Shown piece after piece: positions 2 through 3,158 of a stretch of 64,000 nt of DNA; position 1 is the stretch's first letter, and each line of letters starts with the position of its first letter. Under the pieces are notes generated by a model. The model saw only the letters and a program-made list of their open reading frames with translations. It did no database searches and was not told where the DNA came from. Where the stretch lies: the NCBI RefSeq assembly GCF_000384295.1, contig NZ_KB913037.1:9685508-9749507 (forward strand), in the 5' to 3' direction. Source of the DNA: Amycolatopsis balhimycina FH 1894. Its GTDB lineage: Bacteria; Actinomycetota; Actinomycetes; Mycobacteriales; Pseudonocardiaceae. Made by a program: the position numbers and the translations under genes.

Positions 2-682
2 GAGGGCAAGAAGCTCAACCGCCTGACCGAGCTGGCCGCGTTCCTTGCCCTGCACCCTGGCGTGACAGCCGACGAGATCTCCCGCCAGCTCGGCACGGAC
101 ACCCAGCCGTGGTCCGCGGCGACCCGGCAGGGCTACATCTCCCGCCTCCGCACCTGGCTCGGGCGGGACGAGAAGGACGAGCTGTACGTGCCGAACGTCG
201 ACGCCCGTCACGGCGGCTACCGGATGTCGGACTCGTTCACCTCCGACTGGCGCGTCTTCCGAGACCTGGCGCGCAGTGGTCTCGCCGACCGAGACAGCGC
301 GGTCTCGGACCTGCAGCAAGCTCTCGATCTGGTGCGGGGAACCCCGTTCGGCAACGTCCCGGCCGGCAGGTACGCGTGGAGCTCGTGGCACCAGCGGGAG
401 ATGATCGATGCGATCGTCGATGTCGCTCACACCCTTGCTGACGCCTACCAGAAGGCCGGCGACCTCCCCGCGGCACGCCGGGCAGCCATGCGCGGGCTGC
501 TTGCCGAGCCGGTGAGCGAGATCCTTTACCGAGACTTGCTCCGCATCGAGTACCGCGCGGGCAATCTCGCAGCCGTTCGCCAAACGGCCGACAAGCTCGT
601 CGCCCTCGCGGCCTCACTTGAGTTGGAGCTCGATGAGGAAACCAGCGCTCTGGTGAGCACGCTGCTGGCCGACCGGTCGTAG
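2..682 (+). CDS. BTAD-domain transcriptional regulator, C-terminal part (5' truncated by window)
   Basis: The frame is open from the first bases of the window, so the true start lies upstream; about 226 residues are visible. The beginning (LTELAAFLALHPGVTADEI) reads like a winged-helix DNA-binding segment. It is followed by an alpha-helical region with TPR-like character (AYQKAGDLPAARRAAMRGLL) typical of the bacterial transcriptional activator domain of SARP/AfsR-like proteins. In actinomycete integrative elements such domains often end large LysM-BTAD proteins of unknown role, and the nearby recombinase supports that reading. The gene contains five copies of the GTCTCG hexamer or its complement (260-535). 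A regulatory role for the element is inferred. Confidence 0.75.
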   Translation, partial: EGKKLNRLTELAAFLALHPGVTADEISRQLGTDTQPWSAATRQGYISRLRTWLGRDEKDELYVPNVDARHGGYRMSDSFTSDWRVFRDLARSGLADRDSAVSDLQQALDLVRGTPFGNVPAGRYAWSSWHQREMIDAIVDVAHTLADAYQKAGDLPAARRAAMRGLLAEPVSEILYRDLLRIEYRAGNLAAVRQTADKLVALAASLELELDEETSALVSTLLADRS

Positions 683-736
683 CGAGCAAGTATTCAGGCG
701 AGCCGCTGGTGAATTGTCGACCACGCCTTTTCGCGT

Positions 737-846
737 GTCTCGCTCAAAGGAAATCCCTGACGTGGGTCTCGAGACACGTGAACTGAAGTCGTGCCTGTCT
801 CGCCCCGGTCTCGCGAACGGTCTCGGTGGTCGAAGTGGCAGTCTCG
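737..846 (+). repeat. Cluster of six direct GTCTCG repeats
   Basis: GTCTCG occurs at 737, 766, 797, 808, 820 and 841, all in the same orientation, in 110 non-coding bases. The copy at 766 is part of the 10-bp palindrome GTCTCGAGAC (766-775). Start-to-start spacings are 29, 31, 11, 12 and 21, close to whole helical turns, which suits a protein binding one DNA face. Candidates are an element regulator, a replication initiator (iterons), or a TraB/FtsK-like translocase recognition cluster; the sequence alone does not decide. Confidence 0.6.
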
Positions 847-885
847 GCAGGGGAATCGGGCCCTGAACACGTCGTGGTGACGGAA

Positions 886-1086
886 ATGGCATGGCGCCAG
901 AGTGGTCCTACTTGGTGTTACGATCAGGATCGTTCCCGCGGGGAGAAATGTCATTTCTCTGGCCGCGTTGAGCTTGTCGGTGGGGCAAGCGCTGAAGGAT
1001 TGCGCGCCCGGCTTGCTCGCGCCTCGGCAGATCTTCTTCGTTGGGCTGCTGACGCCTCGTCCGCTGAACCCGCCAAGGATGCCTGA
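886..1086 (+). CDS. Small hypothetical protein upstream of the recombinase
   Basis: An ATG at 886 opens a 66-residue frame that stops 5 bases before the recombinase start, suggesting co-transcription. A GTG at 826 would add 20 residues, but that extension runs into the GTCTCG repeat cluster, so the ATG is preferred. The protein has a Cys-containing N-terminal half (WCYDQDRSRGEKCHFSGRVEL) followed by an Arg/Ala-rich amphipathic helix (AEGLRARLARASADLLRWAA). I do not recognise the family. Small proteins beside large serine integrases can be directionality factors, but nothing in the sequence proves that here. Confidence 0.5.
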   Translation: MAWRQSGPTWCYDQDRSRGEKCHFSGRVELVGGASAEGLRARLARASADLLRWAADASSAEPAKDA

Positions 1087-1091
1087 TCGTC

Positions 1092-3158
1092 ATGAATTCA
1101 CCCAACCGTGTGATCGTCAACCCTCCTGTTCCAGGGCGGCCCGGTTTTGGCCAACCCCTCCGGCCCGGTGTCTCGGGGCCATCGGGACTGTCCGACCACG
1201 CGGTCTCGCCCCTGGGTATGCCCCTGGCCCTGCTCCGAGACGAGGTCCGCGTCGCCTTCCTGGGACGAACCTCCACAGAGGAGCAGCAGGATCCCCGCCA
1301 GTCGATCCTGCGCCAGCTGGGCAACTCCAAGACCGCCTTGCCCGAATCCTGGGTCATCGTCGCGCACTTCTACGACGTCGAGTCCGGGCGGATGGAACTG
1401 GACCGGCGTGGCCGCGGCGACCACTACGACCGCTTCGACATCCCCATCGCCCGCGACGGGGGCATCGCCGACCTGCTGGCCGAGGCTGCGAGACCGGACC
1501 GCCGGTTCGACGTCGTCATCTGCGAGAGCATCGCGCGAGTCGCGCGCCGGGCCTTCGAAGGACTCTCGGTCGAACGAGACCTCGAACGGTGCGAGGTCTC
1601 GCTGTTCGCCGCGAACGAGACCATCAGCGTCTCGGGCAGCCGAGCCCAGCGGATCCTGCAGCGCCGGATCAACCAGTCCGTCGCGGAGTACGAGGTCCTG
1701 AACACCCTCGAACAGTCCTGGGGAGGCACCTGCACCCACGTCCGCGAGGGATGGAACATCGGCAAGCCCTGCTACGGCTACAAGGCCAAGACATTCCGGC
1801 ATCCGAACCCGGCGAAGGCCGCGAAGGGGATTACGAAGACTCGCCTCGAACCCGACGGCGTGCGGAGTGAGACTGTGACCCAGATCGCTTCCTGGGCCTA
1901 CTACGACTGCTTGGGTGGCGACGCGATCGCCACGCTCCTCAATCGGGACTTGGCCAACCACCCGCCGCCCGTGCCGCCGGGACCGGAGCGAGCGCGCGGG
2001 GCGTGGAGCCGCTCCAGCGTCTACGACATCCTCCGCAACCCCAAGTACACCGGCTACCAGGTCTACAACCGCCGCGCCACGCGGTCACGCCACGGCAAGG
2101 TCAACGACCCGGTGAAGTGGGTCTGGTCGCTCGAGCCCGCCCACGAGCCACTGATCCCGAAGTGGATGTACGACGAGCTCACGGCTCGCAGGCAGGCCAA
2201 GAAGGGCTCTCGCGCCGGCGGTGACCGCAACGTCCACCCCCAGACCAAGCGGACCTACCTGTTCCGCGGGATGCTGTTCTGCTCGTGCGGGAGACGGATG
2301 ATCGGCGTACCGCGGCACGGCAAGTCGTACTACCTGTGCCGACCGAGCAACACGAACCGAGGTCGGCCGGACAAGTACCTCGGTCACGAGAAGGCGCTGT
2401 ACTTCCGTGAGGATGCCGTCCTCGACGCCGTCTCCAGGTTCTTCGCCGACCGCGTGTTCGGCTCGGACCGCCGGGCGATTCTCGAGACCGAGCTGGCGGG
2501 CGTCGATGACCAGGCCGATCGCGATCGAGAGGCGGAGGCTCAGCGGCTGGCCAAGGCCCTCGACGAGCTGACCAAGAAGCAGAACTCCATCCTGCGGCAG
2601 GCCGCCGACGGTGATCCTGATGACCCGTTCACGAAGGCCCTGAGGGGCCGCTACAACGAACTGGAACAGCAACGGGCGGGTGCGGCGAGTGCGCTGGCCG
2701 ACCTCAAACAAGCTGGCGGAGCCACAGCAGCCAAGCCGACAGCTGAGGACAAGGGCCTGATCGATGCGCTCCCGTACCTGGCCCTGAACCTGGCGACGGC
2801 ACCGGAACGGCTGCTGCGGACGCTGTTCGAGGTCACGCAGCTGACCATCCGGATTGACGCTGGCGGCGATCGTGCGACACTGGAGATCACACTTCCCGAA
2901 GATCAGCTGCCGGACATCACCGGCGCAGCGGAAAGGATCACCGAGGAGATGCTCTCGCAAGGAACGCCCAGCGGGCGGCCTTGTGAGGTTGCTGTTCGTG
3001 CCCCCGGAGAGATTCGAACTCTCACTGGACGGGTTTTGAATCCGTTGCCTCTGCCAGTTGGGCTACGGGGGCGCGACGTGGTGACTCTACGGGATCACCT
3101 GACCCCGCCCGCGCTCGGGGCTGGGGACCGCTGTGTCGCGCTGGCCACTACGTGGTGA
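1092..3158 (+). CDS. Large serine recombinase (integrase), reading through the tRNA
   Basis: 688 residues. The resolvase catalytic domain spans about 50-200, with the nucleophile Ser61 in GRTSTEE and an arginine cluster in ARVARRAFEG (about 148-157). The DNA-binding Recombinase domain follows (about 225-345), then a zinc ribbon (Cys397, Cys399, Cys416) and a coiled coil (about 470-550), the order of phiC31/Bxb1-type integrases. There is a 45-residue N-terminal extension. Residues about 636-661 are encoded by the antisense strand of the tRNA gene and the rest by chromosome beyond it, so the C-terminal tail depends on the integration state. It is expected to catalyse integration and excision of the element by site-specific strand exchange. 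Confidence 0.92.
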   Translation: MNSPNRVIVNPPVPGRPGFGQPLRPGVSGPSGLSDHAVSPLGMPLALLRDEVRVAFLGRTSTEEQQDPRQSILRQLGNSKTALPESWVIVAHFYDVESGRMELDRRGRGDHYDRFDIPIARDGGIADLLAEAARPDRRFDVVICESIARVARRAFEGLSVERDLERCEVSLFAANETISVSGSRAQRILQRRINQSVAEYEVLNTLEQSWGGTCTHVREGWNIGKPCYGYKAKTFRHPNPAKAAKGITKTRLEPDGVRSETVTQIASWAYYDCLGGDAIATLLNRDLANHPPPVPPGPERARGAWSRSSVYDILRNPKYTGYQVYNRRATRSRHGKVNDPVKWVWSLEPAHEPLIPKWMYDELTARRQAKKGSRAGGDRNVHPQTKRTYLFRGMLFCSCGRRMIGVPRHGKSYYLCRPSNTNRGRPDKYLGHEKALYFREDAVLDAVSRFFADRVFGSDRRAILETELAGVDDQADRDREAEAQRLAKALDELTKKQNSILRQAADGDPDDPFTKALRGRYNELEQQRAGAASALADLKQAGGATAAKPTAEDKGLIDALPYLALNLATAPERLLRTLFEVTQLTIRIDAGGDRATLEITLPEDQLPDITGAAERITEEMLSQGTPSGRPCEVAVRAPGEIRTLTGRVLNPLPLPVGLRGRDVVTLRDHLTPPALGAGDRCVALATTW
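2999..3072 (-). tRNA. tRNA with CAA anticodon (Leu), short variable loop
   Basis: On the minus strand the 7-bp acceptor stem pairs 3066-3072 with 3000-3006, with A as discriminator at 2999. A D arm with GG follows, then an anticodon arm (3029-3045) whose loop TTCAAAA gives anticodon CAA (3036-3038). The T arm has a perfect GAGAG/CTCTC stem and TTCGAAT loop (3007-3023). CCA is not encoded. CAA reads the Leu codon TTG, but the variable region is only 5 nt (CCAGT), unlike the long arm normal for bacterial tRNA-Leu. The last base pair of the anticodon stem is an A-C mismatch. The 3' end is the presumed attachment site. Confidence 0.9.

Follow-up and report, generated by a model that had tools for sequence, protein, structure and literature searches.

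A 64,000-nucleotide stretch of the Amycolatopsis balhimycina FH 1894 genome (contig NZ_KB913037.1, positions 9,685,508 to 9,749,507, called the window below) begins with the apparent right end of an integrative element, where the hexamer GTCTCG and its complement CGAGAC are packed into 1,375 bp. In many related elements the same word forms compact arrays behind genes for relaxases of the PF13814 (MOBC) family. The reading we favor, with about even confidence, is that a MOBC-type origin of transfer (oriT) is recognized through GTCTCG, and that the cluster is a cis-acting docking region for the mobilization functions of this family of integrative elements. By analogy with known MOBC systems, the protein that binds the word and nicks the DNA would be the PF13814 relaxase. 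One step less securely, the dispersed cluster in the window may do the same job as the compact arrays and serve a distant PF13814 protein of its element. The sites are arranged as follows.

260..1634, both orientations: the GTCTCG/CGAGAC cluster of 20 sites, supported by counts, density and conservation in sister copies
260..307, both orientations: first sub-cluster of four sites, in the 3' part of a gene for a LysM/BTAD protein
737..846, + strand: intergenic core of seven sites, six direct and one inverted
1170..1634, both orientations: eight sites in the 5' part of the integrase reading frame

A recount reproduced every position and orientation given in the earlier note (12 GTCTCG and 8 CGAGAC between 260 and 1634). 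The note's expectation of roughly one site by chance also held, since the genome-wide density (8,689 sites in 10,858,503 bases, or 0.80 per kb) predicts 1.1 sites in 1,375 bp, giving a Poisson p of about 1e-18 for the 20 observed. Comparison pieces of 20 kb, ten scattered over the genome (0.88 sites per kb) and ten tiling the 200 kb left of the window, contained no other 1,375-bp stretch with more than 6 sites, and no 2-kb bin in the 120 kb left of the window had more than 5. The cluster stands far above background. The window as a whole is poor in the word, with 54 sites, of which 20 fall within the first 1.64 kb, compared to a mean of 85.6 in shuffled versions.

As the earlier note had described, the sites fall in both coding and noncoding DNA. 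Five are in the end of the LysM/BTAD gene, seven in the gap and eight early in the integrase frame, so that 13 of the 20 lie within coding frames, 10 of them in frame. Six direct copies do occupy the 110-bp gap (737, 766, 797, 808, 820 and 841), at spacings of 29, 31, 11, 12 and 21 bp; the near-helical spacing attributed to them applies best to the last three intervals. Sites 766 and 770 overlap to form the palindrome GTCTCGAGAC at 766-775. Within the cluster, five of six Arg-Asp pairs are spelled CGAGAC (CGA-GAC), compared to 12 of 314 in the genome's other genes, and five of seven Val-Ser pairs are spelled GTCTCG (GTC-TCG), compared to 37 of 313. These codon figures exclude amino acid content as the cause, and because the cluster was defined by GTCTCG they are not an independent test.

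Among 297 genomes sampled from the same bacterial family, 79 contain relatives of the window's integrase. Many of these integrases have a compact GTCTCG array upstream, with outward copies reading CGAGAC, inward copies reading GTCTCG and the half-sites facing each other. A typical array has about 5 to 12 tightly spaced half-sites and lies after a PF13814 gene and, in most compact-array relatives, before a stem-loop box. A distance of 11 bp separates the two members of the central inward pair in 15 of 26 cases, and one of 12 bp separates direct neighbors in 31 of 58; word and spacing are conserved, and the sequence between sites is not. Across the 350 bp after the PF13814 stop codon, GTCTCG was the most frequent hexamer at 27 of 32 loci, a set partly picked for arrays, from which five of 37 had been dropped (a duplicate, two whose relaxase stop was misassigned and two on partial contigs). 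Gene neighborhoods at several loci come from simple open reading frame (ORF) calling rather than a trained gene finder.

A dyad pattern based on this layout matched 31 of the 297 family genomes, compared to 16 for a reversed control, all from one genus (g8), and an order-wide draw gave matches in 8 of 298 genomes. Of 20 dyad-pattern loci inspected, 14 had a PF13814 relative and one more had the integrase alone; the other five, mostly with few sites, had no close relaxase or integrase relative. A direct-triple pattern matched 118 of the 297 genomes and was set aside as largely simple tandem repeats. The idea that each element uses a different hexamer was unsupported as a general rule, as most array loci use GTCTCG, and at three loci without a GTCTCG array (L060, L064 and L068; L and G numbers are our locus and genome handles) no other hexamer exceeded five copies in the stretch examined. 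Rfam returned nothing near a gathering score, a phage search returned only tRNA-Leu genes among the best 20 of 132 matches, and a plasmid search returned three distant PF13814 relatives. One separate array, at L130:7974-8046, has eight GTCTCG in about 70 bp and no integrase, relaxase or small-ORF relatives nearby.

The proteins encoded upstream of compact arrays match PF13814. A survey that used PF13814 alone, with an array defined as at least five sites in 200 bp, covered 60 genomes, 32 of which supplied 59 genes for the count after two of 61 places were left out (one with internal stops, one below the cut-off). Arrays accompanied nine of the 59, from six genomes, and all nine began +52 to +193 bp past the stop codon. 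Arrays also follow PF13814 proteins whose identity to the nearest query is as low as 34 to 42%. Among 54 loci with the first (window-type) integrase, the cluster was present at 16 of 23 with an upstream PF13814 relative and at 7 of 31 without one (Fisher p 8e-4). Many PF13814 loci carry a second serine integrase, about 25% identical to the first, with a different small ORF, and both kinds of integrase and small-ORF module sit behind units of relaxase, array and box. Because the array accompanies the relaxase across two integrases this dissimilar, it goes with the relaxase-type gene and not with the integrase.

The same loci bear on the main rival explanation, an operator array. The small ORF and integrase, and in elements with a type IV secretion system (T4SS) also the divergent transfer genes, would be controlled by a regulator bound to GTCTCG, which may be the relaxase serving as its own repressor, making the array a switch for excision and transfer. 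We regard this as somewhat unlikely. It agrees with the inward-facing pairs, which resemble dimer sites, and with position, as the cluster or array lies upstream of a small ORF and integrase in the window and in all relaxase-array units whose downstream genes were inspected; at loci of the L127/L231 type the cluster takes up the space that separates the integrase genes from a divergent gene adjoining TcpC. The same integrase type nevertheless has fewer than five sites in 200 bp at 24 of the 31 loci that lack a relaxase relative, and at L214 the array is gone along with the relaxase even though the second small-ORF and integrase module stays. Both observations also disfavor the integrase or small ORF as the reader. 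In addition, at least 10 sites over 110 bp, and further sites spread along 540 bp of the integrase coding sequence, exceed the needs of an ordinary operator.

Of the PD-(D/E)XK-like nuclease residues looked for in the array-linked proteins, Asp198 and Asp217 are invariant in 23 aligned sequences and fall where a nuclease site would be expected, but a Glu is missing from some of these sequences (see below). A structural model of an array-linked protein, of modest quality (mean predicted local distance difference test [pLDDT] score, 68), has a winged-helix-like N terminus; Foldseek with this model gave no match at an E value of ≤0.001, and its top-ranked results were winged-helix and FokI chains.

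The stem-loop box occupies about 50 bp just after the compact array and reads approximately CCGGTGATCGCTGGCCCCGACGGGTGC...GCAGTCGGGGAGTCGAAGC; its CCCCGAC and GTCGGGG segments can base-pair. A box pattern containing no GTCTCG located 14 places, one of them in a Streptosporangiaceae metagenome-assembled genome and nine already known as loci. Of the 14, 11 had 7 to 16 GTCTCG sites within 320 bp upstream together with a PF13814 gene, and the other three had neither array nor relaxase gene, in keeping with a link between the two.

The closest known parallel is the MOBC oriT. PF13814 is the Pfam domain that CONJscan recognizes as MobC and corresponds to the MobC relaxase superfamily (PMC5357655). 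TraX of pAD1, the MOBC prototype, has an N-terminal winged helix-turn-helix and binds five direct repeats 70 to 120 bp from the nick site, nic (PMC12857230). The arrays described here are like those of pAD1 TraX and CloDF13 MobC in placing repeats beside the relaxase gene, and the proteins here have a predicted winged-helix N terminus and invariant Asp residues. They differ in that the hexamer lies in an inward-facing array and is common to relaxases down to 34 to 42% identity, in that the word also occurs in elements that carry a T4SS and whose relaxase is far more distantly related, and in that the window cluster is scattered, with no relaxase gene beside it. Relaxase-binding repeats beside a MOBC gene are thus of an already known kind, and what is novel is that the hexamer is shared, that the array faces inward and that a dispersed variant exists. 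Searches of open-licence papers on the motif in Amycolatopsis, on PF13814 and oriT, and on MOBC in actinobacteria turned up none describing such an array, judged mostly from titles and abstract openings.

Two other kinds of element share parts of this organization. MobC integrative mobilizable elements with serine integrases (Streptococcus IME_Class_8; 2017 review; compare PMC5357655) likewise combine a PF13814 relaxase and a serine integrase in compact order with a small gene between. Those streptococcal elements also encode a VirD4 coupling protein, whereas none was seen directly upstream of the relaxase at ten loci here, which were viewed without a Pfam scan. AICEs (actinomycete integrative and conjugative elements) of Mycobacterium resemble the window's element in having a serine integrase and a tRNA-Leu target and differ in transferring by means of TraB; the survey that describes them searched for relaxases of the MOBF type only (PMC3218068).

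The best known recognition code of actinobacterial conjugation is that of TraB, and the earlier note had compared GTCTCG to the short TRS repeats that TraB/FtsK-like translocases of actinomycete elements read. TRS/clt repeats of this kind, in Streptomyces plasmids and AICEs, are read by a TraB/FtsK-type double-strand DNA translocase. We consider this reading very improbable for the window. What speaks for it is that the repeats are short and lie close to an end of an actinomycete element. The gene linked to the arrays is a PF13814 relaxase, and the word read by TraB of pSVH1 is 5'-GACCCGGA-3', not GTCTCG (PMC5133688). No FtsK-like translocase was found near the window: of 13 genomic matches to PF01580 (FtsK_SpoIIIE), the closest lies 648 kb to the left. 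We reject a TraB/FtsK reader because no match lies within 600 kb, a distance that applies to translocases similar enough for the model to detect. Of the transfer- or replication-recognition code proposed earlier, the transfer part remains the best reading, given GTCTCG arrays in many related elements, and the TraB/FtsK parallel is unsupported.

In the MOBC reading, the N-terminal winged helix of the relaxase would bind the GTCTCG array, several relaxase molecules could load side by side on it (a relaxosome loading site), the DNA would be nicked nearby, with the stem-loop box as the candidate nick region, and one strand would pass to the recipient cell. The window would hold a dispersed variant, with the transfer genes of its element (T4SS parts and a PF13814 relaxase) apparently 62 to 79 kb to the left. 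That region encodes AAA_10 (VirB4-like), NlpC/P60+SLT, PF13814 and ParB_N proteins, plus a weak, sub-threshold TcpC match. The three kinds of gene that a T4SS-type integrative and conjugative element would combine (integrase, relaxase-family and T4SS genes) all lie within 82 kb, and the search did not find the element's left boundary.

Eight further loci, all from the window's genus, have a cluster without an adjacent relaxase relative (L053, L063, L071, L072, L127, L156, L231 and L247; L063 has four sites in 200 bp), and no significant box match was found in any of them. In G054 (L127), an integrase of the same type and a dispersed cluster have TcpC and AAA_10 genes next to them, and a PF13814-ParB_N pair is 13 kb away. 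Sites also accumulate inside the integrase gene in both L127 and the window, at different places. DUF2637 proteins adjoin two of these dispersed clusters, L063:14566-15303 (- strand) and L071, and another lies 100 kb left of the window (L007:29-832); the assignment is by Pfam for L063 and L007, and the L071 protein is 64% identical to that of L063.

The gene order in these elements also touches on a role in replication or partition, with GTCTCG as iterons for a replication protein of the excised circle or as a centromere read by a ParB-like protein beside the distant relaxase, which we judge rather improbable. A ParB_N gene does lie directly 3' of the PF13814 gene both 62 kb left of the window and in G054, a centromere protein that spreads along DNA would be well served by sites scattered across 1.4 kb, and PF13814 bears the name "replication-relaxation." Set against this, no obvious partition operon was seen upstream in the ten compact-array loci listed, whose genes were not scanned against Pfam, and no replication gene was identified beside the window cluster among the part of the element's genes that was scanned.

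Two sister copies of the window cluster show how its sites fare over time. In G564, 94.6% identical here, 19 of the 20 sites are kept compared to 71% of other hexamers (p 9e-3), and in G291, 89.5% identical, 18 of 20 are kept compared to 55% (p 9e-4); these p values treat sites as independent, and two sites overlap. Third codon positions inside coding sites are unchanged in 26 of 26 and 25 of 26 cases, respectively. The cluster is thus kept as DNA in the sister copies, and the lack of conservation in sister elements that the earlier note had named as a refutation did not occur. These figures argue against a relic, in which a compact array lost its function after the relaxase gene was replaced by the LysM/BTAD gene. 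The missing box and adjacent relaxase, the looser spacing and an insertion sequence (IS) of the IS21 family 2.4 to 4.7 kb left of the window would fit such a history, which we nonetheless find quite improbable.

Several observations weigh against a MOBC-type oriT, as a general rule or in the window. Most surveyed PF13814 genes (50 of 59) have no array, 7 of 23 relaxase-linked integrase loci have no cluster, and L068 has relaxase and box without an array. A catalytic-looking Glu is absent in 4 of the 23 aligned proteins, three of these four being array-bearing. The sites precede small-ORF and integrase genes in both kinds of element, as expected of an operator. The window cluster has no significant box match and no PF13814 gene beside it; the sole match in 264 kb (the window and the 200 kb to its left) is 64 kb to the left, and this protein is only 21% identical to the array-linked type. 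Because the left end was not found, it is not proven that the cluster and the distant PF13814 and T4SS genes form one element. G231 has a dispersed cluster, yet no PF13814 match in its genome, and in G260 and G124 the matches lie at a large distance or on a different contig. Finally, the box occurs without a relaxase in 3 of its 14 places (L210, L214 and L215), where the GTCTCG array is absent too, so that the box is not strictly tied to the relaxase. The gene before the box is a DNA methylase (PF01555) in L210 and L215, and L214 is similar by eye. At the three loci, loss of array and relaxase (or the failure to gain them) went together, and the box therefore has a function or history of its own.

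A further possibility, which we hold to be unlikely, is that GTCTCG serves as a shared transfer password, one word read through distantly related PF13814 proteins by both the small elements with compact arrays (a relaxase encoded and no transfer channel as far as looked) and the T4SS elements of the family. If so, small or relaxase-less elements (G231, G260 and G124) could be mobilized by a resident conjugative element. Whether a resident element mobilizes small ones through one recognition word becomes a testable question. To our knowledge, hardly any mapping of MOBC transfer origins has been done in Gram-positive bacteria, and GTCTCG, behind PF13814 genes 34 to 42% alike and near T4SS-element integrases, offers a sequence handle for finding them in antibiotic-producing actinobacteria.

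The genes around the window cluster are as follows.

2..682, + strand: C-terminal end of the gene for a 900-aa LysM/BTAD protein (BTAD, PF03704; LysM, PF01476), which starts 2 kb left of the window
826..1086, + strand: small ORF of 86 aa, start codon tentative, kin of the small protein just upstream of the integrase in related elements
1092..3158, + strand: large serine recombinase (Resolvase, Recombinase and Zn_ribbon_recom domains), the integrase of the element
2998..3072, - strand: tRNA-Leu (CAA), the apparent attachment site and right end of the element

The small ORF matched no Pfam family, and its predicted structure (mean pLDDT, 69; predicted template modeling score [pTM], 0.39) was insufficient for a fold search. 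The 3' end of the integrase overruns the tRNA-Leu gene. This tRNA gene and its right flank were present in 40 of 40 searched genomes of the genus, while left flanks differed among 20 compared loci; this combination of a constant right flank and differing left flanks makes the site look like a hotspot for integration. The 200 kb left of the window contained no second copy of the tRNA-Leu end.

A 39-bp copy of the tRNA-Leu 3' end does occur 9.0 Mb away, beside an IS21-family copy. The IS21-family pair in the right part of the element (IstB_IS21 and Mu-transpos_C_2, L003:15313-17573) has a counterpart near 666 kb (L155, G000:C1) that is identical over the 678 bp compared, and the 39-bp tRNA-Leu piece is about 260 bp from it. 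The IS21 copy and nearby tRNA-Leu piece suggest an IS-linked rearrangement. Two PF13814 genes of the window's genome (L076, G000:C1:9621318, and L077, 2467077) each contain three GTCTCG within about 30 bp inside the gene. An AT-rich gene on the - strand at L003:2956-7017 encodes 1,353 aa with weak NACHT and TPR matches and is possibly a STAND-type defense gene carried by the element.

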